From NCBI RefSeq assembly GCF_025602895.1, contig NW_026516256.1:124001-188000 (forward strand): a DNA stretch of 64,000 bases. The letters run 5' to 3'. The first letter of the stretch is position 1, and each line of letters begins with the position of its first letter. This stretch comes from Polychytrium aggregatum (taxonomy: Eukaryota; Chytridiomycota; Chytridiomycetes; Polychytriales). Positions 6,259-63,382 of this stretch are shown in pieces. The notes beneath the pieces are model-generated. The model saw nothing but the letters and a program-made list of their open reading frames with translations. It was not told the origin of the DNA and did no database searches. The position numbers and the translations under genes are program-made.

Positions 6259-9200
6259 TCAAGGCTGGGGGTTCCCGGACTCGTTTTGAAGAGCCCCTAA
6301 AGGTGCGTCAAACTGACTTTGGTTCGGAGCACTCTTTGTAAAGCTGGCCATCGACTGGTTGTTGTTCGTGCTGACCGCCAGCTTGTCGAGCATCGCAAAG
6401 ACGGTGTTGTCGCGCTTGGAAGATCCTGGCCTTTGCAGCCCCGCGGCCGCTGTCTTGGCCTTGAGCACCGAATGTGCCCCGGATCGGGACTTGACGTCGG
6501 CATAGTTTTCCAGAAACATCTGGGCCGTTTCTTTGGAGCCAAACTCGAGTGTGTACACCATCTTGTTGCGTCGGAGCCGGACGCTGCGAGCCAGGGCCTT
6601 CTCCGAGTCCGAGTTCTCTGCCAGTTGACAGGGCTCGCACTCACACGATGAGAAGCGGAAGCTCGCCTGGATGGTTCCGTCCGCATCGGCCTCTCGAAAC
6701 TCGATCAGGTCCAAGGTCGTGAACACCAGCACGTTCGAAGACACCCAGGCACCGCCAAACTTGAGCCCCTGCAGACCGCAGTCGTATGCATAGGCGAGGA
6801 CGTTGGCTGCCACCATGCCCTGGCTTGAGATTGCAGAACGATTGTTGTCGGTTGGCGCCGAGTTTTGCGATGGCTTGTCGACCTCGCTTCGTTCGTTGTG
6901 GAAGGTTTGGACAAGTCTCACCCCAAAGAGGATGATCGGAACCAGGGACGAAATCACCACGATGACGCATCCAAGCATCACTCGGCCGACAGTGAAGAGG
7001 GCATCGGAGTTGACACTACCGGAGAGGATATACAGGATCGGCAAACACAGCAGGAGCGTGACAAATACCATGTAGACGCAGATGCCGATGACCTTGGACT
7101 CTTGGAAGCGCTTGTGGGCTCCCCGTGTGAGGAAGGCGACAGCAACGCATCCGATCATGACGAGCCCGTTCATGACGTAGAGCAGGATCTCGGGCACCAC
7201 GGTGGGACCCGACGTGGCCGAGCACACCAAGGAATAGGATGTACCCACGATCTGAGCCATTGGATTCTCGACGGCCATCCAAGCAATGCAGATGATGATC
7301 TCGATGGCCACGATGATCGCTGTGCCGAGGATGAGTTTCCAGTCTGGGGTCTTGAAGACACGCATGCGCTTGTTGCCGAAGATCATGTATATGCGCAAGG
7401 ACTTCATCAGCAGCATGCTGGTTGAGAGATTGAATGTGGTATGAGTGCGAGCGCAGCGAGATTCAGACGGGTGCCTCATCCAGCAGACACAATGGATCAA
7501 CTCGCTGTAGTAAATCGATGCAATGAACAGTGTCGATGCAGTTGAACAGCGTCGATACAGAGAAGCAGTGCCGATGCAGTTGAATAGTGCCGATACAGTT
7601 GAATAGTGCCGATACAGATGATCTCCACATCGTGCCAAGTCCGTTGCTGGCAAGCTGAAAACCAATCTCACCTGAATACGGAGGAGAATGCCACGACCGG
7701 GAAGAACACCCGGCTGGAGCACACAACGCTGCTTGGTTGAGCCGAATAGAAGAGGGCGCCGAGCTGGCCGATAACTGAAGAGCACATGCAAAGTCAGTCG
7801 TCGCGCAGCTCGAGTCTCGTCTACAGACAAATCCACGAAACTTCCACAACCTGCATCAGAATCGATGGCAGCTGTTCACGGCGCACCGACTCCAAAGGAC
7901 TCTCCAGACCAGACTTGCATCCGAGCACTCACTTGATCCAACCATGATGATGTAGCAGCAGTTGGGCGAGATGGCCTTGATGTTGGCCTTGTTTCTCCAC
8001 AGCACCAACAGGGCAAAGATCCCAAAGTTGATGACTAAGGTGACCGTAAACAAGGCCACGACAGCGGCATTGCCAGAGTAGTCGCCAGTCACCAAGACGG
8101 CAAATGGCGAGGCTGGCTCAGAGCAGTCCAGACTTTGGTTGTTGTAGTATCCAACGTCGCAGACGCACTGGGTCACGGACGAGTCCTGGAAGGGTCCGTC
8201 GACGATGCAATATCCGTTCTTGCACGAATTGGCGCTGATGTAGGTCCCGTTGGCATCAAAATACGGATTACAGGGCGACGCAGGATCGTAGAGAGCCTTT
8301 CCATTGTGTGTGACGAGCTTGAGGGCATCAAATGCAAACTGGCGGATGCGGGCGTCGCCAAAGTGAACAAAGTTGTTCTGAGAGAAATATGTGCTGGTGG
8401 AGGGCGATGACGTTGATCTTGTGGAGGGTTGCTGTTGGAGCCGAGAGCAGAATGTGGATATCGGAGGGGCGATCGCCGCGTGGGAGAGAGTTGGTTCAGT
8501 AAAGCGATCAGCCAACGATAGGACATGCCAACAGAGTGTGGACCTGGGCCGTGCAGGCATCGAGAAGCATCAAAGTGCGCACAAGAAAGCAGTGATAGGG
8601 AAGTTGGAGGGGCAGCCAGATCAGCAGGCAAAGGGATTGTGATGACAGGGCAACATGATTGACTTGTCGCGATCAGCATGGGAGCAACCGCCCCAGAAAT
8701 CGAGCCACAAAACTGGCGAGCCAGCGCACAATTCCAGCAGCAGTTGCACATGGGGAGTGCCATCGGACTGGACCCTTACCGCCTCGGTGCCGCCAAAGAC
8801 CATCCAAAACAAGAAGCGCAATGTGGCTCGCATCTGCAGCTCGGTGATGTTGTAGAGCTGGGAGTCTTGCCGAAGGAACATGTACGTCGGGGCCATCAGC
8901 GGATAGGCGCCTGGCGTAGCCGAATCGATGTAAGTTGCCTGGAGGATGCTGCTGATGTTGTTTGTGAAATGAGAGACGGCCGAGATGTTGGCGGTGCTTG
9001 GGGTTGAAATGGCCACCTGTGCAGAGATGCGAGTGTCAAATGCACATCGGACGAGGCTGGGCTTCAGTCGACGCAGGAGGTACGATCGCCATTGCTCCAT
9101 ATCCCTGTATGATCGCTATAGCCCCGTCTTCTGGAACAAATGCACCAGGTGCTTACATTCAGACTCGCAATCGAAGGCGCCACGGTGTCACCGTTTCGGT

Positions 9201-10230
9201 TGATAATGCTGGCAATAGAATACAGACTCTGGCCCGGTGCGAGCGATGCCAGTGTATTGTAGCCATCGGCATAGTCGACATATCCGATCGTGTACGGAGC
9301 AACCTGGATGGCGTCCGAGAGTATGGTGTTCGATGCGGCGTAGAACGGCGGGTTGGCGATGCCCCAGGAGGCAATCGGGTACATTTGTGGAGATGGAAGT
9401 CGCAGGGTACGGTCGAATGAGTTCAGTGCGTACTGGAAGTTGGACGTTGTTCCGGAGTGGCCGCTCCGCACAATCGTCTGGATCGGGGCGCTGATGGTCA
9501 AGAGTGCTGGGTTGTTCTGGGCGAGTCTGGAGTCGTTCCAGAAGGCGATCTTGCCAGTGAAGATGTCGGCAACGTTCTGTCGGGTCAGTGTGAGATTGGT
9601 GATGTTGAGATGGTAGACAATGGCGATGCCGCTGTGGGAATGGAGGATACGGAGCGGATGGGTCAGGATATGCGATCACGACGAAGGGCGACCGGACGCT
9701 CTGGCCGCAGAGGCATCATGGCCCACGACACTTGCCTGATGACCGATGGAACAGGTATGAACTGGCCAGCGGTGTTGCCCGGTCCGACATAGGTGGTGTT
9801 GGAGAGGATGTTGTCGGATCCAGCCCAGGTCAGCCCGGAGGCACCAGCAGCCAAGGAGGTTCGACCGATACCTGAAGTACTTCCAGTGTATGCATAACTC
9901 CAATTCGGATCGTAAGCCGAGTACAACCCCGAAAGAGCAGTGTAGAGCTTGGCTGGGAACGTTGCGCCGACTCCTTGGATCGTCCGTCGGGTTTGAGCCA
10001 TGCTCGCTGGATGTCGAGTCAGACGGAGGTTAGTGGCGGTCATCCAGAGCTGTTCGATGACGACCCGGGACCGACACAGGGCCCATCCGACGACCAGGCG
10101 GCCGCTGCTATTCGCATCTTCTGTCTTCCGTCTTCCGTCGCGGGAGGTGGCTCGATTACTTACTCTGTATCGACAGGTAGATCAGCAGAGCAGTCAATAG
10201 CGGTTGGCGGAAAGCGCTCGTTGGGCCCAT
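6259..10230 (-). CDS. Class C (family 3) GPCR with PstS-like ligand-binding ectodomain and EGF-like module
   Basis: Seven exons (10230-10164, 10006-9736, 9631-9157, 9016-8780, 8431-7933, 7774-7672, 7417-6259) sum to 2811 nt, 936 residues. Residues 1-22 are a signal peptide (MGPTSAFRQPLLTALLIYLS). Residues about 28-350 carry the hallmarks of bacterial PstS phosphate-binding proteins: GVGATFPAKLYTAL, TGSTSGIGR, AGSDNIL, DIFTGKIAFWND, RSGHSGTTSNF and TIGYVDYADGYN. A Ser/Thr-rich linker and a six-cysteine EGF-like unit (spacing C-15-C-4-C-13-C-1-C-11-C) follow. Seven hydrophobic helices from about residue 465 to 720 match GABA-B/glutamate-type receptors (for example LRIYMIFGNKRMRVFK and LGCVIVVISSLVPIILFG). 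The roughly 210-residue cytoplasmic tail contains a possible PH-like stretch. Intron 2 uses a GC donor (CAG|GCAAGT). Ligand and coupling are unknown; phosphate or another small oxyanion is only a guess. Confidence 0.88.
7530..7618. repeat. Intronic minisatellite in the receptor gene
   Basis: Imperfect copies of TGCCGATACAGTTGAATAG and close variants (TGTCGATGCAGTTGAACAG) stand in tandem inside the last intron of the receptor gene. The unit is about 19 nt with at least four copies. Confidence 0.75.
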
Positions 10231-10795: not shown

Positions 10796-11417
10796 ATGAA
10801 TGTCTCAGCAAGCGTCGCCTCTGACGAGGCCGCCATTGCTGCCCTTCTGGCCGATCCACTCCTGGCCGACGTCAAGATCAGCTTGGAGCCATCGCAGGCC
10901 CTTCAGTCCATCGCCGCGCTGGAGGATCTGATTGCAATCGAGCGCAACGAGGCATTCACGGTCCGAGTCGATCGCTCTCCGCTCGAACCCATTGGTCAGT
11001 GCTTTGCCAGCAACGTCTTATGCAGCGAGCTCGTTGTCTCGAATGCTTGAGGCTTGCCCGCCTCGCTCACGCCGCCCATACCGCTCCATCCGATCAGACC
11101 TGGTCGTCAGGCCATCGACGACCCTTGCCGATCTCAAGCGGCAATTCCAGACCAAGCTGGGCTCGCTCTTGTCGGATTCGATGGCCAGTACCACATCGGC
11201 AAGCGATTGTCCGGTCGAGACCCCGCGCAGGGCAACACGCCCGTCTGGACCGATATCCTGGAGATACACCTGGAGGAGCTATTTGTTCTATTCCAAACGA
11301 CTGGGCAAGCTCCAAGACGACCACCAGAATCTCATTGCCTGGGGCCTGCAGTCAGGCGACGAGCTACGGTTCATGAAGAAGCTGCGGATGCGCAAGGCCA
11401 AGGCAAAGAAGCGCTGA
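10796..11417 (+). CDS. SNRNP25: U11/U12 snRNP 25 kDa protein (minor spliceosome)
   Basis: Two exons (10796-10994, 11098-11417) join in phase to give 172 residues. The C-terminal half is a ubiquitin-like fold typical of SNRNP25: LVVRPSTTLADLKRQFQTKL, then ISWRYTWRSYLFYSKRLGKL, then DELRFMKKLRMRKAKAKKR. Human SNRNP25 has the matching ISWSYVWRTYHL and DEVSFIKKLR segments. The protein is part of the U11/U12 di-snRNP that recognises U12-type introns. A 20-residue insertion before ISWRY is rich in Ser, Thr and Pro and might be a retained or missed intron, though the frame is open across it. The gene converges on NOG1. Confidence 0.85.
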
Positions 11418-11794
11418 CAAGCGAGCATCTGGCGCTGCGAGCCGACATGGCTTCGAGTTTGCAGGACGCTCGAGCAATCAGCACTGAGAGAGATGTGTGC
11501 AAGTGGGCAGGTAGCCGCCGTCTATTCAGCAGCCGGGCAACACCCGAGCAATCGAAACATCGCAGCAATGCAAGGACGGGTCGCTGGTCGTTACCAATTC
11601 GGGCGGCCATGACGACCAGGAACCCGAGTGCGACCCGCCCATCATGCCAATATGAAACACAGATGCAAAACGAGGGATAGGAGGATGGAAGGAATGTGTC
11701 GCAGCCCGCTGTACTCGGACGAGCGCACGGGCCTCTAGAAGCACAGCAATACAGTAAGCTGGGTGTCCTGGCGACATCCAGGAAAGCAGCAGCT
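11418..11794. other. Convergent intergenic gap, no gene seen
   Basis: These 377 bp lie between the stop codons of SNRNP25 and NOG1 and must carry both 3' ends. No other feature is supported. Confidence 0.55.
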
Positions 11795-14695
11795 TTATCG
11801 GTGGCTCGCGCTGCCCATGCCTCGCTTGCCAGAGAACAAATGCTTGGGCATTTTGGTTCCGATGTGGCGATCGGCCTCGCCGGCCTTGGCCAGCTGGTTG
11901 CGCTCGCGTTGCGACTTTTTCTTGATGTCATCAGCCTTGGCTTTCTGCTCGACGGTGGCAATACCCATGGTGCTGCGGTCACGCACGACGCTGGTGGCCC
12001 GCTTCTTGGCAGCAACAACGGTTTGGTCTTCATCTGCAGGTCTCGACTCGGATCGTGCGCGCTTGCGGACGACACTGCGCGATCGGATCGAGTCCATGTC
12101 GGCCTGGATGCCTGTTTCCTTGAGGTGCTCCTCGAGGTCGTCGAGAGTCTGGATACAGAATCAGGGTCGTTAGAGGGCCCGGCCAACCATGCAATACTAC
12201 GCAATTGCCCCCGCTCCACAAGTAGATAGAGTCGATACAACCCTGCAGCTCCATACACACGATGCAAGTGCAGCGCACTGACGCCCAGCCTCACCTTTGT
12301 CGACAGCTTGTGCTGAGGAATCTGGGGGCGGTTCTTGCCTTGCGCCTTCTTCTCGCGGTGCTCGATCAGAATGTACTTCTTCTTCTCCCGGATCACGTCC
12401 GCGGCCTCCCGGATCACCTCCTCGTCAGAGTCGAGCTCCTCAGGCTCCGATTCGTAGAAGCCCTCGGCGATCAGGCGCTCTTCTTCGCGCTCGAGAGCAT
12501 CGAGCTTGGCTTCGATATCCGGGTCGATAAAGTCAGCAACGTTCTTGCCGTCCATGATCTCGGGAATAACATCCTGTTTCCAATCGTCGTCCTTGAGGAG
12601 GTAGTTGTCTGTCGAACCAAAGTCCATCGCATCAGTAACCAATCGCATCATGTTGGATGGCAGGTGCACATTGGCAAAACGGCTCGATCCTCGCAAATAG
12701 CCGCATCCACCAAGACTCACCCTTGAGGTTGACATTATAGACACCAGCGCCACCGTGTTCGGCCTCGATGTCTCTGGCAAGCTTGCGGCGGTTGGGGTCG
12801 TTGCGGTCGTACTTGACTCTGGACTTGGCCTCGTCCGGAATGAAGGCGGGGCGCTCCTGCAGACAGAGCAGGAATTGGAGATGAGAACAATATCGCCGAG
12901 AAGCCCTCTCAGCACTGCCAATCGAAGCACGACTGATGCACCGCACACTCCAAGAATAAAACCAGCCCTTACTCTGTCGTCGCGAGGCGTAGGTGTGGCC
13001 AGATGCAGCTTGTTGAGGACGCCGCTGACTTTGCTTCCCTTCAGCTTGGACTCGACGCGGGACTGGAGAAGGATGTCGCAAGCCTATATAGACAGCACCA
13101 GACGGTGAGTTGCCGAGTCCAAGAGTCACCAACGGCGACAGCGGAGTCCACAGAGCAGAAGCTGCTTCAAAGAGCGCCGCCAAGCTGGCTGATATGGACG
13201 AGACTTACTCGATTGCGAACATCCATAACGCCCTCCTCAGTCCAGCACGAGAGCTGCAGCATCTCGATCTCGTCTCGCTTGAGGATACCCTCGACCAGAG
13301 CCTTCTCCTTGGGCGGCAAGTTCTCGGGCTTCATGACATCGATTTTGTTGATGACGAGCACCGTGGGCTTGTTGGCAAAGAGGGGCTTGATGGCGTCGTA
13401 TAGACTCACCTGGCATGCGCCGCGAAGGGAATGCGATATGAGAATACCATCAAATCAAGCTCGGCGTAGGCAGCGACGATGATGGTGTGCTTGGCACGCA
13501 TACCTGCTCGGCGATGCTGTAACCGCACTGTTCCGACAGATCCAGGAAGAACATGACGCAGGCGCGGATGTGGGCCATGGCGGTGACGCTTTGCATCTCA
13601 ATGGTGTTGCGCTGCTCCAGCGGATGATCCAGGATACCGGGCGTGTCGATGACCTGCCATCGGAGGTCACGGTAGTCCATGTGGCCAACGAAGAGCGACT
13701 TTGTGGTGAAGGCGTATGGCTGGACCTCGACCTCGGCCCGGGTAAGCTTGTTCATGAAGCTCGACTTTCCAACGTTGGGATATCCGCAGATCAGGAGCGT
13801 TCGGGTATTGGGGTCGATGGAAGGCAGACGAGCCAGATGCTGGCGGACCTGCTCCAGGTACGCCAAGCTGTCCTTTTGTCGCTTCATGATAGTCGCCATA
13901 CTGCCAGCAAGAGGGCCGAATCGTTAGCGTGGTCTGCATTGTCTCGAGCCAGGCACGTCTGTGGCCAAATCGGTGTTGCCACAGCAGCCATCGAGGCAGC
14001 TGCATCGGTGCATCGCCGCTCGCAAGCGGTTGACATCCAGGTCCTGGTACTCACCGACCAAGAGCGGCTCGCTTGAGCTGCTTGCAGCGGAACAGCGAGT
14101 CACCGAACTTCAGGAGGCGCAGGTAGTCCTTGGCAACGTTGTCGATCAGGTGGCGAGCGGTGTTCATCTGGCCCAGGGCCAGCTTGTAGTGGTCGCGGTC
14201 ATACAGGACGTTCATCAAATCGGCATAGAAGGGGTGGATTTCCTACAGGCATGGGGTGGTATGCGACTGTCAGGGCGGTGGTGACGAAACAGTGCCACAA
14301 TGCAAAGAACAAGTTCGCTGGCGACCCGCACAGGCGGCTTCAGCTCCAACAGCAGCAGCGGGCTACCACAGGATGCAGCCCAGACGGTCCACACCACAGA
14401 GGGACATGTGGACCAGCAGTATGATGCAGCTGGAGGCGACGTCGTGCGCACAAGGAAGGACGGATTCTGCGCTTACATCCAGCTTGGGAAATTCGGTCAA
14501 GATGGCATTCAGCTTCTCGTCGAAGCAGTCCTGGGCAAACTTGACCTTTCGCATGTAGAACGAGCGAATGCGGGAGATTTGGAAGTTGGGGTGGACGACC
14601 GTGGGGGTCTTTCGCTGAATCTTGGACAGGATAATGTCCAGGAGATCAGGGCCCGAGGGCACGACCTGAATCTTCTTGAAGTTGTATATGGACAT
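11795..14695 (-). CDS. NOG1: Nucleolar GTP-binding protein 1 (60S ribosome biogenesis GTPase)
   Basis: Eight exons (14695-14477, 14242-14055, 13900-13504, 13409-13209, 13083-12973, 12856-12721, 12608-12295, 12148-11795) sum to 1920 nt, 639 residues, close to the yeast protein. The N-terminus ([20 protein letters not shown]) is the standard NOG1 start. GTPase motifs are intact: G1 [10 protein letters not shown] near residue 175, G3 DTPG, and G4 NKID in [12 protein letters not shown]. The family signature [16 protein letters not shown]-like stretch appears as [15 protein letters not shown]. The C-terminus is basic and ends [19 protein letters not shown]1 rides on pre-60S particles from nucleolus to cytoplasm and is an essential Obg/CgtA-class GTPase. 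Identity is very secure. Confidence 0.96.
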
Positions 14696-16947: not shown

Positions 16948-19470
16948 ATGTCGCGAAACAGTACTTCGAAAAGCTTCCAGAGAAACAGTACCAGCGATGG
17001 ATCTCGACTTCCGTCACTGAGAGCCTCTACTTCGTCACGCGAGCGCCGCCAGAGTGGCTCCAAGCGCAAAACGGAGGACCCAGCGGCACTGCCCCTGGTC
17101 GCCCACCGACAGAGCTCCGTTTCCATGACTCCGATGCGGGGAGGCAGCGTTACTACTCCCAGCGAGCCCAGGTTTCCGGACGAATCGACCCGTGCGCTAC
17201 CAGCACTTGGTTCATCAACTCCAAACTCCAAAAGTGACTCTCCGACATACAAAGAGCCACCGCCTCCCCCCGGCCGTCGAAAGTCGAGCGTCTCCAAACT
17301 GCGCTCTCCAGCCATCGAGGGGCCTGCTCCACCAGGCTCCAAGGCAGCCGCCACCTCCGCCAAGATCGAACGGCGAGGAACCCTTGTCAAGATTGGCCTG
17401 CCTCCACCAAGCAGAACCAAATCCAAGAAAGACAAAAGGTCCGAGCTCAAATCCAAGGTCGAACCCCTGCCGGAGATCGTGCTGCCGCCGCCGACGCCCC
17501 CGTCGGCTAATCATCAGGTCGACATGTCCCTGCCCGGCGAGAAAGAAAAGGTGCTCAAAGCCATGGCCAAAATCTCGGGCCCAATTGTGCAGTATCTGCC
17601 CGACGGCATTCCAAAGTCGCTGCTGCGATGGCGCTACGTCTTGTATGTTGCTCTGAAGGTTCTGCAGTTCAAGACATACGACCCCAGGACCGATGCAGCG
17701 CCGACCTTTGAGGAGCTGAATATCAGCAACCGCATCTACGACGACGAGGTCTCGAACGCCCAAGCCTGTCGAGACATCACCGACATCATCGGGGCATTCA
17801 GGGTCACACGGGTCCTCAGCACACCGCCGTCGAACCGGGAAGAGAGAGAAATCGACTCGCTCGATGCCATCCTCGGCCGGTTCAAGGGCTTTGCTCGGTT
17901 CCCGCCAGCGGTAAGGCCTGTCGTGGGTTGACGGATTAGTTCATGTGGCGATGGGGGTAGCAGTGGAAGTGGTGCAATCTCTGCTTCGTCGCCCTTGATG
18001 TTAGTTGCAGCCTTGTCCAAGTTTTCTCTCTGTCTTGCTTGTTCCAGACTGACTGACTGATATCTGCCCGGTCACATGTGACAGACCCGCATGAAGCTCT
18101 ACAGCGTAGCCTCCATCGTGAGCTATCCAAGAGGCACTGTCCTGATCCGGTCGGGCCTCAATGCAACCACCTGGTACACCATTCTCCTCGGCGAATGTGC
18201 TCAGTTTGCCCCGCCTTCGTCGGTCGAAGATGTCAGTACCGTCCGGATCTTGCAAAAGTACGAGGTTGGGGCCTCCATCGGCGATTTCGTCAACACCGGG
18301 CCACGCGAGATGCGCGGCGTCACAATTTCGTGCTTGATGCGGACCATCCTCATCAAGATCGAAAAGGCCGACTACATCACCGTCAGTCGGGACACAAAGT
18401 CGCTTGAGGCGTATCAGCTCGAATTCCTGGGGAGCGTCCCTGCCCTTTCCGATCTGTCCAAGCAAATGCTGATGCAGCTTGGTGCACGCAGGTGGGTGCC
18501 TCTGGGCTCTGGACTTGTCGACACCCTCGCTCAGTCGTCGGCAGCAAGCCCCATTCTCCTCTCTCAAGCTGGCTTTCGCTGCTTACTCGTCTATTTTTCA
18601 TGTGTGCTTGGCTGCAGCGTCGTGCGGCGCTACCCCGGCGGATCCTTGATTCTCAAGGAGCACGAACCCAACGCCAATATCTACTTTGTCGTCCGCGGCG
18701 CATGTCGTGGTCTGCAGCAGCTCACCTTCTTGAAGAAACCAGGTCCCAAGCCCGCGCTGTTCAACCAAACGTACATGCTCGAAGCCTTCCACAACCAGCC
18801 CGTCGATGCGGAGAAGGACGAGATTGTGCGGGAGTTTGCCCTTGTCGCCGACATAACCGTTGGTCAGTTCTTCCCGCCGCTGATTCCTTCACAGGAGCTC
18901 AAGAAGCTCCGGAAGGCACGCAAACGAGAGGCTAGCTCGGCAAGGGCCACCCCCGAGGGACCCGAGGAAGGAAGCGCCCCGACATCTGCCTGGGCCATCC
19001 TCCAACAGTCCATCAACTCGATCAACTCCAGCCCCATCTCGGTCATGGCCAGCGAGGTTACCGAGTGCATCATCATCACCCGACAGGACTTTTTGGAAGT
19101 AACGACGCCAGAGACGGTCCGCAAAATGACCGAGCCCAAGGCATCGCCGCTGGACCAACCATTCGAGCTGATCATCGAAAAGTACATGGTTGCCTTTGGA
19201 TGGAAGGAGAGCGTGCTCATGTTCAGCAAGGAGCGCATTCCGCCCTATGTCAAGTGCAAGCGTCGGCGCCGGCGCAACGAAAAGCCCAAGAAGGCTGTCA
19301 TTGTCTACCGAGACGAGCAGGAGGCAAAGGAGCGCGAGTTGATCGTCAAGCTCACTCGATTGACCGAGGCCACTCCGCCGACTGATAACGACGGGCCCCG
19401 TCTCTCGGAGCTCCTGGACTCACAGCCACACCCAAAGGCCGTCTCGGGGCAAGCAAGCTCTGGAATGTAA
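16948..19470 (+). CDS. Protein with two cyclic nucleotide-binding-like domains (CNBD2-like)
   Basis: Three exons (16948-17910, 18085-18491, 18618-19470) give 740 residues; ATG 16948 (MSRNSTSKSFQRNST) is the most plausible start. Residues 1-190 are disordered, rich in Ser, Pro and Lys, with polyproline runs. A helical segment (LLRWRYVLYVALKVLQFKTY) precedes the first CNBD-like fold near 325-430 (SIVSYPRGTVLIRSGL, WYTILLGECAQF). The second lies near 458-640 (VRRYPGGSLILKEHEP, IYFVVRGACRGL). The phosphate-binding cassette Gly-Glu...Arg is not conserved in the first (GASIGDFVNTGPREMRG), so cAMP/cGMP binding is doubtful. The end is basic (CKRRRRRNEKPKK). Related CNBD2 proteins are linked to flagellated cells in animals, which would suit a zoosporic fungus, but that is inference. 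Confidence 0.75.
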
Positions 19471-49046: not shown

Positions 49047-51171
49047 ATGGGTAATGCCTGCTGTCCGGCCGGCGGCGGCCAGGAAAAGTCGTCCAACAAG
49101 GTCGCCGAGGCATCGATCGGTAATTCCTGCGTCTCCGTCAACGCCAACAGCAGCCGTGCATGGGGACAGGATGCGAGCGCTTTGGGGCATCCCTGCGAAT
49201 GAGATGGATGGCCTGTATGCAACTGAGATGGACGGCGGCTTTGTGAGTGAGATGCCCGTGTTTCAGCGTGCCGCCGCTTGCACCCTTGCCGATACTCTTG
49301 TTGGATAGAGTCCTCTCTCACTCCTGCTTTCGACCACGGCGTAGATGCCCAGCTAAAGCTTTCCGAGATGGAGGCCAAACTCAAGTTCAAGATTTTGCTG
49401 CTAGGTACAGCCTCGATGTCAGCTGCGACACTGGCGCCGTTTGATATGCCGGATGTGTGCGGCCTCGTATCGTACCTATGCTTAAGAATCCGGGCCCGTG
49501 GGATGGGGGGGGCTTTGCTTGTCCAGGATCGGGTGAATCGGGTAAATCAACAGTACTCAAGCATATCAAAACCATCAACAAGATCGCCATGTCCAAGTCT
49601 GAGATTGCCGATATCGTAGCGAGTCTCCGTCGGAACTCGATCCAGTGCATGAAAATCCTCATTGAAGAAGCAGAAAAGTTTGGCTTCAATATCGGCGAGG
49701 CAGACAAGGTGGGATCAAGCGGCGCCCCACAGAGAGAGGGCATGCGTTTGGGGCCGGTGGCCGGTGGCCCGGGAAACGCCGGTTGCTGACTATGCTAACG
49801 CTAATGGGACCGCGGTTGATACAGGCAAAATCCGACGCCCTCGCTGCCATGGAGGAGGACGGAGAGTCAGATCAAATCGACACGGTAGCCGATGCCATCT
49901 CGGTGCTGTGGAAGAACGACGCCATCCAGAAGACTTGGGAGAAGAAAGACGAGTTTTGGATTCTGGATTCAGCAGATTTGTACGTCCGCGCTCGCCGATA
50001 CACTCGGAGAGGCAAGGGCGTCAATGGCCCGCCAGCAGAGCTATGTGTTGTCGTGGGCGAACATGCCTGTGCCTCCCGAGTATGCTTCCGATGCGTCTGA
50101 CCTCTCTGCCATCCACATCCTGGTTGCCTCGTATGGTGTTTGTTCAGCTACTTCTCCAACATCGAGCGCTTCTGCCAGGATGACTTTGAGCCTACCGAAG
50201 AAGACTCTGTTATGGCGAGAACGATGACGACGGGCATCATCACAACCGAAATCAAGATAGCCCCGCTGACTTTCTCGTAAGCGTAGTCTGCGTGGGAGAA
50301 TATGAATGCGGAGTTTGTTGCACACCTCTCCCGGCTGACAGGCACCATCTGCACCTTCCAGACTCATCGACGTTGGTGGCCAGCGAAACGAGCGAAGAAA
50401 GTGGATTCACACGATGGACGACTGCAACATGATATTGTACATTGTCAACCTCTCTGGATACAACAGCGTGCTGTTTGAGGATCAGACCCAAAACCGGATG
50501 AAGGAGTGCCTGACGCTGTTCAAGCAAACAGTCAACAACCCTCTGTTCTCGAGCATGCCAATATTCCTCCTCTTCAACAAAAAGGATCTCTTTGAGAGCA
50601 AGATTCGGAAAACCCCGATTACCGTCTGCGAGTGCTTCTCGGATTACAGTGGTGGGTTCCGGCCTGAATCGCTGTCGCAACCAGCAAGTGCTGACTTGCT
50701 TTGGGCCAGCAAGGGCCGCCGAATCCGGCGGCGGAAGGCTGCTGACGCGATGAACTGCAGCGGAAGTAACATTGCCTCGTGCGACTGGACACCGACAGGA
50801 TCGGGCGAACTTATGGACTGCATAGCATTCATCGAGAAACGCTTCAAAGTAGGTGGCAGTCCGTCGGTTCTGAGATGTGTGGAAGGTGGCCAGCGCCGAC
50901 TACCGGCGGAGACAACCACCCGAGCCGTCTTGGCCTTGCATCAATGTTGTGAGAGCTGTGCCCTGACGCCATCGGCTGCTTCCCCCCCCCTCAGGAGCAA
51001 ATTCTCTCTGGATCACCCGACCGCCTCAAAGTCTTCAACATTGCGGCGCGATTCAAAAAGGACGTCAAGGTGGTGTGGGACGAGCTTATCGTGTACCTGA
51101 AGACCAACAACAAGTCTACGATCGACTCGGCACTGAAGTATATGGAGCAGAAGGGCATTATCCAGAAGTAG
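49047..51171 (+). CDS. Divergent heterotrimeric G-protein alpha subunit
   Basis: Eight exons (49047-49119, 49345-49404, 49527-49708, 49825-49979, 50148-50276, 50362-50651, 50799-50848, 50995-51171) sum to 371 residues. The start MGNACC offers a myristoylation Gly2 and palmitoylation Cys5/Cys6. The P-loop is GSGESGKST (45-53), switch I is RTMTTGIITTE with the catalytic Arg (about 181), switch II is DVGGQRNERRKW with the catalytic Gln (about 207), and the guanine motif NKKD is present. The final part is unusual: the TCAT motif is replaced by FNIAARFKKDVK, and the C-terminus reads ALKYMEQKGIIQK rather than the usual NLxxxGLx receptor-contact tail. GTP hydrolysis should be intact; nucleotide exchange rate and receptor specificity may differ. 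Confidence 0.9.
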
Positions 51172-58803: not shown

Positions 58804-61800
58804 ATGGTCTTCAAGGAGCTCCTGTGCTGCTTTGCAGACCAGGACGACACTCCTCCCCACGACAGAGGCATCGTGAAATCCGCCCAGCACGCCGCCGAAT
58901 CCGCCCTGCCGAGCGGCCCCGACCATGCCCAGGAATCTGCCCCGACCGCTGCAGCCGAGGTTTCGGAGCCGGTCCAGTCCGAGCCCCGTCCTGTTCCGCC
59001 CATGGATCCCTTCGACGCTTGGATGCACCCGATCGAGGCCCTTATCAAGATGGTCCGGCAGGAGCCCTCGGCCCTCGCCATATTCACGAGCGAGAACGAC
59101 ACAATCGAGCGATACAGCTATCTCCGGCTCTGGGAGCGAGCCTACTCCATCGCCCAGGGGCTCAAGACGCTCCCCGGCTGGGACGACGAGGGCCACAGCG
59201 TTGTTGCCATCTACTGCGAGCCCGAGGCGCACTGGGTGCTCTATTCGTTCGCCGCCTGGATCCTTGGCAAGTGCGTACCAAACGGGGCTGCCCCGTCCCG
59301 CACCCAATTGTGGCACATCCCCCGTTGCAGACATTCCCGCCATCGCACACCCATACTCACACATCCCTGGCCTCCAGGAAAGTTATCAACTTTGCCCTCA
59401 ACTGGTCCGCCTCGGTTCGCAATGAGATTTCAAAGAGGTATGGTCTGGCCGCCCGGCCTTGGGCTCGCGTCGGTTCAATCGCTCCACGCCCCTCTCCGCA
59501 TCGCTCTGACGCTGGCTTTGCTGGACGCGCAACCTCCTCCATAGACTCGGCATTCGGTATATTTTGTTCCGGTTCACGCATCCGGGACGCATCCAGGGCG
59601 TCGAGCAAGTCGATGCCAGTCTGTTCCCTCCGGTCAAGGACATTCCCGAGGCATCGCTCGAGGTGTGTGCGCCCCTGAGCGAGCAAATCTTCTACATGAG
59701 CACCTCTGGAACGACAGGTGAGCTTCCCGATGTACCGGATCGGCATCGGATGTATCTGTGCGATTTCCCCATAGACCCTGCATATTCCAGCGCGAGCTGA
59801 CTTGCCTGGACTCTATCCACTGCTCACAGGTGTTCCCAAGACGTGAGTATCCCATACCGCCCCGGTGTTGCCTCGATCCCGTCCATGCCGGCTACTGACC
59901 CTGGCTCCCTAATCGCAGGTATCTTGGTGCCCACAAGTCCGGCGCTCCGCTTCGACGCAACCTGTGCATCACCTACGGTCGCATCGGCTTCTTCCTTGTA
60001 AGTCAACCAACCAAACTTGTTCCTGTCTCAGCCACACTCCGGATCCGTTTGGAAAGGCTCCCGACCATCTCTGACAGAGCGTCTCCGTTCTCGATGGTAC
60101 AGGCGCCGTCGTTTTCAGCCTCGATGCTGCTCATGCTTGGCACGCTCCAAGCCAAGGCGTCCATCTGGTTCCCCAAGCCCACCAACAATCATGTCGACAA
60201 GGCGCAAAATATCATTCGCCTCCTGGACGAGGGCATGGATATTTTGAGAGGAGTGAGTCCAACATCCAACCCTGCAACGCTCCGGCACAATTTGAACTCC
60301 ATATCAGCATCTTCGCAACGAATGCTTTCTCATGCCGGCTCTGTGTTTCACTTTATGATGCTACGTCAATCCACAGACTCCGTCCCTCATCAACCTGGTG
60401 TTCAAGTTGGCTCTCGCCAAGAACCGCAACACCCAATGGCCCGGCGTCAAGAGAGTGTCGCCCGGCGCCGAGTTGGTTTCCATACATCTCATCCAGCAGG
60501 CTCGAAACTTTTGCCCCAACGCAACAATGCAGTGCAGCTATGGCTCCAGCGAGGTATGTATCCCACGACATGGCTCCAGGAATGCACGCCTCGGCATCTA
60601 ACCCGCTTCGACCTTCATCCAGGCGGTGCTCATCCAGGCGTTTGGCTTCAGTATCATCCGGCCCAAGGACCCTATCCCCGAGCGACTCGTTTATACCATC
60701 TCAAATCCTGGCGTCCGGTGTCTGCTCTTTGATGAGAACGGCGACACTGTCGACACAACCAAGACCAGAAATGGCATCTTGGTCTATGCCGTCAGTCCCG
60801 ACCATCCGATCCGAAGCCACCCCAACTTTGCAAACTCCAACCCGAACGAGAAGCTTGCTGCCTTTGGCTTCCTGGAGGATGGCTCGCCGCGTGTCTGCAC
60901 CATGGACGAAGTGGAGCTTGTTAGCGAGCGTGAGATTGTGATCTTTGGCAGGTGAGAGGCACAGACGCTTGGGTGAGCCGGATGGTCGATGAGACGCTTG
61001 CTTGGTGGGCGATGAAAGCGCCTGCATTCATGCGAGTGGCTGCCGTGCTTCAATCGACGGTATCGCCCGCGCCAGACGGGCCTTGCGGCTACAGTCGCTG
61101 CTTGACTCTTCTTGACGTACTGTAGCTGATCGGGCCCTCTACCTGTATCATCGTCCCTCACCACCGCTGCTTCCGCTCAACACCTGCCGCTGTCGCCGTG
61201 GTGATTCAAATGCAGATACGGCCAAAAGATCAAAATCAACGGCGTGTACATCGACCTTCATGTCCTCGAGACGCTGCTCTCCACCAGCATCTCTCAGATG
61301 GTCTCGGACTGCGCCTTTGTCCAAACTTCGGATCAAAAGATTGTCCTGCTCTATGTCTTGAAGAAGGACTATCCTGTCGCGCTCACATCCCGCCAGATCC
61401 TTGACGCCGCCGAGACCATCTTTACTCTCCAGAACATTTCCAGGGTGCCGATTCACAACTGCCTGGAGCTGCTGGCCATGCCCTTCAACGACTCTGGCAA
61501 GCGCGATACCAAGAAGCTCAAGCGCATCGCTGAGAATGCTGACCACCACGAGCTTGCCATGGCCTACCCGGCCCTTGTTGTCGACGACACGCCCTTGTCC
61601 AAGGCTGCCCTCAAGGTCTCCCGCATTGGAAGCCAGCTCCTGGACATTGAGGTCCTCGACGGACGCGACTACTACATCGCCGGTGTCGGCTTCGACTCGC
61701 TGAGTGTCGGCCGACTTACCCTCGCCATCAAGGAAGAGTTTGATGTCGAGATCTCGCCACTGATTTTGTTGTCCCATGGCATGACTGCCAAGAACATTGC

Positions 61801-63382
61801 CAGCATCATCGTCGACCTTGGCGACGGCAGGCCCTTCCAGCCACCCACCGTCGATCTGGCCCAGGAGGCCGCCAAGCACGACGATGCGACCGTGACGGCC
61901 GAAAGACTCCCCGCCTTTGTCTTTCCCGAGGCCCCCAAGACGATCCTGCTCACGGGCGCCACAGGGTTCCTGGGCATATTTTTGCTCTTTGAGCTGGCTG
62001 CCCGTTTCCCCGAGGCCAAGATCGTCTGCTTGGTCCGAGCCAAAGACAAGCACGCAGCGAAGGAGCGACTCAAGACCACCGCCGCGACCATTGTTGTGGA
62101 CTCGCGCGACTCTACCGCCCCCAAATACGACATCTGGGGTCGCGTTGAGGCCCTGCCGGGCGACCTGTCGCACGACAAGTGGGGTCTCTCTGAGGCTGTC
62201 TGGGATGCCCTCGGCCAGTCCGTCGACGTTATCGTCCACAACGGCGCCGAGGTCCACTGGCTCCAAGACTACCACGCACTCAAGGGTCCAAATGTCCTTG
62301 GCACGGCCACCGCACTGCGCCTTGCCACTGCACACCACCTCAAGCCGCTCCACTACATCTCATCTGTCGGGACTGTCCCAAAGACCAAGGGGTCTGCGGC
62401 ACCACTGGAGGAGACCCTCTACTCGGCCTGGGATATCTCTGGCGGCTACGGACAGACCAAGTGGGTCTCTGAGCAGCTGGTCAACAAGGCGCGATCGCGA
62501 GGTGTGCCAGCCACCATCATCCGGCCGGCTGTGATCGCGGGTGATAGCCGATATGGAGGTGAGTCGTGGTGATGTGGTGGTGTGGTGATGTGGTGATGTG
62601 GTGGTGTGGTGGTGGCGATGTGGTGGTGTGGTGGTATGGTGATGTGCTGGACGCTTACTCGCCCCACTCACGAATCGCTGCTCATCGCCTGACAACGGCT
62701 CTCACTTGCCGTCGCCAGTCTGCAACTCGGACGACTACATCTGGCGATACGTCAAGGGATGCATCCAACTCGGCATCGCACCGTGCCATGTGAGCACGGT
62801 GACGACCAGCATGGACCCCGTCGACCATGTCGCCAAGGTGATCACAGAGATTGCTGCCTCTGAAACTGCCCTGTCCAAGTTTGTGTTCCACATCAGCCAT
62901 CCCGAAAACAGGTGAGTGGCGCTTGCTGCTAATCCAGTAATGCCATAGCTCCGCCCTCCAGTACCTCGGCGCCAGCTTCTCATTCGTCTTACAACGCTCG
63001 TATCTCACCGCTGACCCACTGAATCGCCGCAAACAGTGCCATCAGCGAGAGAGAGATCTTTGAAGCTGTCAAGGGCATGGGCTGGGATACCAAGTTCGAA
63101 ACGCGTGATCAGTTCCGAGCCGCCTTGGTCGAGTCGCATTCACAGCATCAGAACGCCCTGTTCCCGTTGATGCATATGGTGATGAGCATGTCCTTCCGCA
63201 TGGACAACGCCAACACCCGCTCCATCTACCCTGCACCGGGTCTCCCGGCTGCGAGCCAAGTCGCAAACTGCCTGCAGTACCTCTGTCAAGCCGGGTACCT
63301 CCCGGAGATCCCCAGCTCCCCTCGTCTGCCCGAGGAACAGTTCCCACGGGTCTCCATCGTCAGCCGGACCGGTCGCCACTGA
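58804..63382 (+). CDS. NRPS-like reductase: adenylation, carrier and thioester-reductase domains (A-T-R)
   Basis: Eleven exons (58804-59270, 59378-59437, 59545-59717, 59830-59842, 59919-59997, 60103-60252, 60377-60553, 60623-60951, 61216-62558, 62719-62911, 63037-63382) sum to 3330 nt, 1109 residues. The A domain (about 95-600) shows A3 YMSTSGTTG plus VPKT, A5 YGSSE, A8 RYGQKIKINGVYIDL and the A10 Lys in NDSGKRDTKKL. The carrier domain has GFDSLSVGRL with the phosphopantetheine Ser near 641. The reductase domain has the Rossmann ILLTGATGFLG near 725 and catalytic YGQTK near 893. Such enzymes activate a carboxylic acid and release it as aldehyde or alcohol with NADPH; Lys2 is the best-known relative but has a longer N-terminus. 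Exon 4 is 13 nt and encodes the core of A3. The start is the likeliest of several in-frame ATGs. Substrate is unknown. Confidence 0.88.
62566..62643. repeat. Intronic GTGGTGATGTGGTG repeat
   Basis: Imperfect copies of TGGTGGTGTGGTGATG fill most of the intron between exons 9 and 10 of the reductase gene. Confidence 0.85.

Follow-up and report, generated by a model that had tools for sequence, protein, structure and literature searches.

The closest systems in print are proteins that join a bacterial type of binding domain to a class C seven-helix core. Krishnan 2012 (PMC3251606) reported a PBP_like_2 domain in SPPG_06488, a Glutamate-family receptor of Spizellomyces punctatus, and LysR_substrate, OpuAC and SBP_bac_1 domains in other fungal Glutamate receptors. 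Rolfe 2016 (PMC4815078) described Plasmodiophora brassicae proteins in which 7tm3 is joined to SBP_bac_1 or PBP_like_2, with both parts in single coding regions of the transcriptome, and read these fusions as transporters absent from other eukaryotes, arguing by homology and stating that the substrates need experimental confirmation; the claim of absence from other eukaryotes is contradicted by the account in Krishnan 2012 and by the genome analyzed here. Seppala 2016 (PMC5168858) found that nearly every second class C receptor in gut fungi bears a type II binding domain, Liu 2025 (PMC12842992) put the number of Glutamate-class sequences in fungi at 918, with an enrichment in Blastocladiomycota and Chytridiomycota, and a review from 2026 (PMC13308352) tabulates the fungal Glutamate-type receptors (class XVI) as uncharacterised. 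Since the PBP_like_2-7tm_3 architecture is in print for Spizellomyces and Plasmodiophora, it is already known, which answers the question, left open in a preliminary description of our locus, of whether it had been described. The literature consulted contains no analysis of the binding pocket, no count of such genes within a single genome and no clade with altered pockets; the literature searched (titles and abstract openings, with most subscription journals outside its range) reports no phosphate ligand for such a receptor.

We analyzed a window of 64,000 nucleotides, i.e., the whole stretch of DNA presented here (G000:C369:124001-188000), and searched the genome to which it belongs (64.7 Mb, 418 contigs). 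Matches to chitin synthase (best 765 bits, with a model that also matches 4 of 14 prokaryote controls) and to radial spoke protein 3 (four in the genome, none in the 14 controls) fit a flagellated fungus; the flagellar marker tektin had no match in the genome. The receptor gene lies on the minus strand at window positions 10230..6259, and was modeled with seven exons by spliced alignment, with introns 2-6 placed by a purpose-written spliced dynamic programme using the protein of an intronless paralogue on C365 (L009) as the query, and intron 1 (10163..10007, phase 1, GT-AG) set manually. The coding sequence sums to 2811 nt (67+271+475+237+499+103+1159), i.e., 936 amino acids and a stop, which agrees with the seven exons and 937 codons of the preliminary description, where the strand had been left unstated. 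Introns 9156..9017, 8779..8432, 7932..7775 and 7671..7418 are also GT-AG, and 9735..9632 is the single GC-AG intron among the six. A copy on C335 (L011), taken as the other allele, is 99.6% identical and shares the intron pattern and the open frame. The N-terminal signal peptide described beforehand is a judgement by eye on a hydrophobic N-terminus, and the hydropathy scan of the window protein gave no flag there. The features of the gene are listed in Table 1.

Table 1. Exons and domains of the receptor gene (feature, window positions, strand, content or basis)
Exon 1	10164..10230	-	start codon, hydrophobic N-terminus, signal peptide judged by eye
Exon 2	9736..10006	-	PstS-type domain begins: GVGATFP, TSG, GSD; GC-AG intron 9735..9632 next
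Exon 3	9157..9631	-	PstS-type domain core: DIFTGKIAFWND, RSGHSGT
Exon 4	8780..9016	-	PstS-type domain end
Exon 5	7933..8431	-	linker, EGF-like unit, TM1, TM2 start
Exon 6	7672..7774	-	remainder of TM2, initial part of TM3
Exon 7	6259..7417	-	remainder of TM3 through TM7, cytoplasmic tail, stop
PstS-type (PBP_like_2) domain	8858..9983	-	residues 31-324, introns included
Six-Cys EGF-like unit	8117..8272	-	residues 404-455
Class C 7TM core	6937..8068	-	residues 472-711, introns included; Pfam 7tm_3 and PDB relatives
Conserved cytoplasmic domain after TM7	6481..6810	-	residues 754-863; sequence conservation

We regard it as close to certain that the window gene carries a PstS-type domain and a class C 7TM core in one protein. 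In a Pfam search with the whole window protein, PBP_like_2 (PF12849) matched residues 25-324 with 75.9 bits (cut-off 27) and 7tm_3 matched residues 472-711 with 122.8 bits (cut-off 33.5), which bears out both the earlier proposal that a PstS-type domain serves as the ectodomain of a class C receptor and the profile check put forward with it; no other domain was found at E<=1. Ten hydropathy windows exceeded 1.5 in the window protein, and seven of these (474, 508, 539, 579, 628, 660 and 697) fit TM1-TM7, the seven helices already described, with two of the other three overlapping them and one (105-123) lying within the soluble domain. Among solved structures, the 7TM part matches mGluR2, mGluR1 and other mGluRs first, followed by GABA-B2, which is much weaker, and CaSR; the type named previously was GABA-B/glutamate. 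Cys 535 and Cys 616, at the places of the TM3-ECL2 disulfide, are conserved in all 21 family sequences, and RFQESK of the window protein aligns with NFNEAK of mGluR2; we take these disulfide cysteines and the F-x-E-x-K before TM6 to be marks of a class C core. The ectodomain is of the PBP_like_2 type and not an ANF-type (type I) Venus flytrap, and none of the 7tm_3 matches listed lies close to the two ANF_receptor or two SBP_bac_1 matches that the genome has.

Between the ectodomain and the helices, the six-Cys EGF-like unit noted earlier was recovered, with cysteines at 404, 420, 425, 439, 441 and 453 and a C-x-C before the last. All six are conserved in 20 of 21 sequences; L017 shows four, perhaps because the unit was truncated by automatic splice modeling. 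Two of seven family members score with Pfam EGF (PF00008; best 5.2e-6), and the window copy has no match to it. The cytoplasmic domain is 57-99% identical among window-like genes, 28-31% in L009, L012 and L017, and 20% in L023, with 11 invariant columns across 10 members. A profile search with 10 cytoplasmic tails gave one PH_29 match at E 0.0013, below its cut-off, and one PH match at E 0.16; in a search with eight tails only that of L017 matched PH_29, and a PDB profile search with the domain gave a best E of 0.39, with two chains. These matches argue weakly for a fold that is perhaps PH-like.

The ectodomain was compared with solved structures using a profile of 12 ectodomains, which found 30 solved sequences at E<=1e-3, E. 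coli PstS first, with other PstS and DING proteins after it. Their depositors named three of them otherwise, 4f18 and 5jk4 as alkaline phosphatase and 1twy as an ABC periplasmic substrate-binding protein; the names of all the others are PstS, phosphate-binding/DING protein, subunit of a phosphate transporter, or phosphate ABC protein. A tungstate/molybdate-type ectodomain was considered and rejected, no such name occurring in this set of 30. All 12 representative ectodomains match the PstS model TIGR00975, with the window copy covering model positions 1-289 of 315, and the four PstS motifs quoted in the preliminary description are all in the window translation. Judged by these profile matches, the window ectodomain is clearly homologous to PstS. 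Its TIGR00975 score of 116.9 bits lies under the equivalog cut-off of 205 for a PstS orthologue, and for this reason the ligand of the domain may have shifted.

Published contacts to phosphate in PhoX are Ser34, Ser62, Asp80, Arg159, Gly164, Thr165 and Asn201 (PMC5439949). With PhoX and E. coli numbering differing by a constant 24, a profile alignment to E. coli PstS places T38, S67, D87, R168, G173, T174 and N214 of the window protein at these positions, where the register of S67 depends on the profile alignment and a single-sequence alignment puts S65 there instead; counting Thr and Ser as equal, the window gene keeps all seven. Across the family, 11 of 21 sequences have seven of seven contacts, L023 has six (Arg to His) and nine have three or four, and when near-identical copies are merged the 12 distinct genes divide into eight, one and three. 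Phosphate appears a sensible candidate ligand, given that the window gene has the published pocket residues, as the earlier proposal of phosphate or another oxyanion had supposed. Our main reading, to which we assign a probability of about 0.6, is that the window gene encodes a class C GPCR that would sense inorganic phosphate or a close oxyanion by way of a PstS-type Venus flytrap, in a family containing a subfamily with a changed ligand. For the window receptor we infer a ligand, a lobe closure, a role for the EGF-like unit and coupling to a G protein as follows: extracellular inorganic phosphate or a close oxyanion would bind in the interlobe cleft, the lobes would then close, and the EGF-like unit would relay this closure to the 7TM core, which would in turn activate a heterotrimeric G protein.

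The altered pockets form one group in a tree of 18 sequences, with a support of 100/99, and can be placed on it as one change; this tree was midpoint-rooted, kept the contact columns in, and has long branches flagged for L009, L012, L017, L023 and others. Within the group, Arg168 is replaced by Asn or Ile, and Thr174 by Leu, Ile or Met, with the signature LTRQN..DIF.GK...WND retained. A one-sided test compared eight contact positions, taken to be those of the pocket, with the other columns invariant in the intact set. Against five close genes this gave p values of 0.043 (L018), 0.032 (L020) and 0.0012 (L024), and against eight genes, with L023 excluded and Ser/Thr equalised at residue 38, 0.048, 0.033 and 0.00046, respectively, all six tests being interdependent and uncorrected. 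Read in this way, the values argue weakly for a concentration of changes in the pocket in two of the three altered genes, and more strongly in the third (L024). As three of 12 distinct genes lack three or four of the seven contacts, phosphate is unlikely to be the ligand of the whole family.

The same evidence bears on the best-surviving alternative, a receptor of the same build whose pocket would hold another ligand, such as a metabolite, an organophosphate, the end of a polyphosphate or a different oxyanion, which we see as possible and tentatively keep in second place. A scan of bacteria gave a single relative, only 30% identical, and this, the score below the PstS equivalog cut-off and the altered pockets of sister genes all fit such a ligand, as does E. 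coli PstS position 137, which is Gly in all 21 sequences. For our main reading we count that 1qui, the best-scoring chain, has Gly there as the window protein does. Also weighing against the alternative are the seven published phosphate contacts, all of them in the window gene and in eight of the 12 distinct genes.

A phosphate transporter, in which the PstS-like domain would pass phosphate to the seven helices and these would carry it through the membrane, is improbable. PstS itself belongs to an ABC system for uptake, which lends the idea some background; the helices, however, score as a class C receptor and align to mGluR2, and class C cores are not known to transport. In addition, a search for the ABC permease BPD_transp_1 (PF00528) that was positive in all 14 control genomes gave no match here, and on this ground an ABC uptake partner for the ectodomain was rejected. 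The naming of PBP_like_2-7tm3 proteins as phosphate transporters in Rolfe 2016 (PMC4815078) is a point in favor, and it is the argument from homology, with substrates awaiting confirmation, that is described above. The present genome speaks against the architecture being a transporter unique to Plasmodiophora.

Very improbable, in our estimate, is that the PstS-type domain binds no small molecule and persists as a folded module for adhesion or dimerisation. The three distinct genes with altered pockets have mostly open frames, which would mean that the fold can persist without a phosphate site, and one of the nine altered sequences, L020, carries an in-frame stop. The contacts nevertheless survive large divergence: L012 is only 36% identical in the PstS-type domain, yet has seven of seven. 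The stop in L020 (C113:502300-508300) lies within the EGF-like unit and is absent from L021, which is 95.8% identical to it. In L013 (C35:249700-255700), 90.8% identical to the window gene, part of TM4 is missing in the model, where a gap of 46 bases was called an intron, and the near-identical partner L014 keeps this part; we treat both L020 and L013 as damaged or doubtful.

Our search of the genome identified at least 28 PF12849 matches at E<=0.001, and each of the 28 listed is followed by 7tm_3 in the same orientation at a distance of 424-1866 bases, so that no PF12849 match listed is without a 7tm_3 partner. Conversely, 28 of at least 58 7tm_3 matches are listed without a PF12849 partner. 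The family comprises about 12 distinct genes when copies more than about 95% identical are merged by eye. On both C410 and C412, PF12849-7tm_3 occurs twice, in opposite orientations and at a spacing of about 75 kb, and three of these four (L018, L019 and L027) are >99% identical to one another. Since the window protein was the query from which the loci were modeled, their recurring exon lengths lean on the window gene: 475/237/499/103 is found in all 14 window-like loci (L010, L011, L013-L016, L018-L022 and L026-L028) and 478/237/499/103 in L024 and L025, and the four most divergent loci (L009, L012, L017 and L023) do not share the pattern. The wrong joining of two adjacent genes is barely credible for this gene, whose exons are predicted from the DNA, and was rejected because both domains of the C365 paralogue lie within an uninterrupted frame of 1089 codons, the loci repeat the same intron positions and phases, and the Plasmodiophora transcripts are reported to contain single coding regions (PMC4815078).

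Comparison of coding sequences also gave signs of purifying selection on the window gene. Against L010, L015 and L016 (60-64% identical), dN/dS ranges from 0.12 to 0.27 overall, with 0.12-0.17 in the PstS domain, 0.17-0.27 in the 7TM part and 0.13-0.17 in the cytoplasmic domain, and for the EGF unit it is 0.12 against L010, with no value against L015 or L016; these ratios are rough, because every dS is >1 and synonymous sites are near saturation. Against the close copies L013 and L014, dN/dS is 0.16-0.50. A decayed gene was rejected in view of the allele L011, with the same introns and an open frame, and of the low dN/dS.

On a wider scale, we give even odds to the view that the phosphate cradle of PstS was taken over as a class C Venus flytrap and duplicated to about 12 genes for phosphate-sensing GPCRs, in which the older type would bind phosphate and the derived clade would have been re-tuned to other ligands, with the PstS fold of this genome serving only as a receptor sensor among the matches listed. 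The pocket can be read from solved PstS structures and would provide this uncharacterised class of receptors with a concrete first ligand to try, and a genome that has both intact and altered pockets offers natural controls. The genome contains 80 exon matches to G alpha and 20 matches to RGS. G alpha (PF00503) exon matches also lie in the window at 49523-50653 (+; C369:173523-174653), about 39 kb from the receptor, and the same matches are found on C335, the contig of the second receptor copy. Other frames in the window contain a cyclic nucleotide-binding domain (18082-19470, +; PF00027, 31.2 bits), a NOGCT domain (11371-13083, -; 59 bits), presumably of the kind known from nucleolar GTP-binding proteins, and a phosphopantetheine site with NAD_binding_4 (61205-62572, +), which we take to resemble the end of an aminoadipate-reductase-type enzyme.

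Among known systems, SPPG_06488 is a chytrid protein with a PBP_like_2 (PF12849) ectodomain on 7tm_3, both of which the window gene likewise carries; the passages on it in PMC3251606 name the domain pair, with no mention there of a pocket, an EGF unit or a cytoplasmic domain. The Plasmodiophora brassicae proteins show the same PBP_like_2-7tm3 pairing in an organism that is not a fungus. In gut fungal class C receptors a type II domain replaces ANF, as in the window gene, but these domains are described as similar to binding proteins for sugar uptake, unlike the PstS type found here, and the few receptors reported with EGF-like units have them beside pectin-lyase folds (PMC5168858). The bacterial PstS, PhoX and DING proteins share the sequence family and the seven phosphate contacts with the window ectodomain, but are without a 7TM fusion, and the window domain scores under the PstS equivalog cut-off. 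Animal mGlyR/GPR179 and mGluR2 have the class C core of the window gene with Cache or ANF sensors in place of the PstS type, and mGlyR, too, has an EGF-like domain beside its sensor (eLife 2025, PMC12716839).
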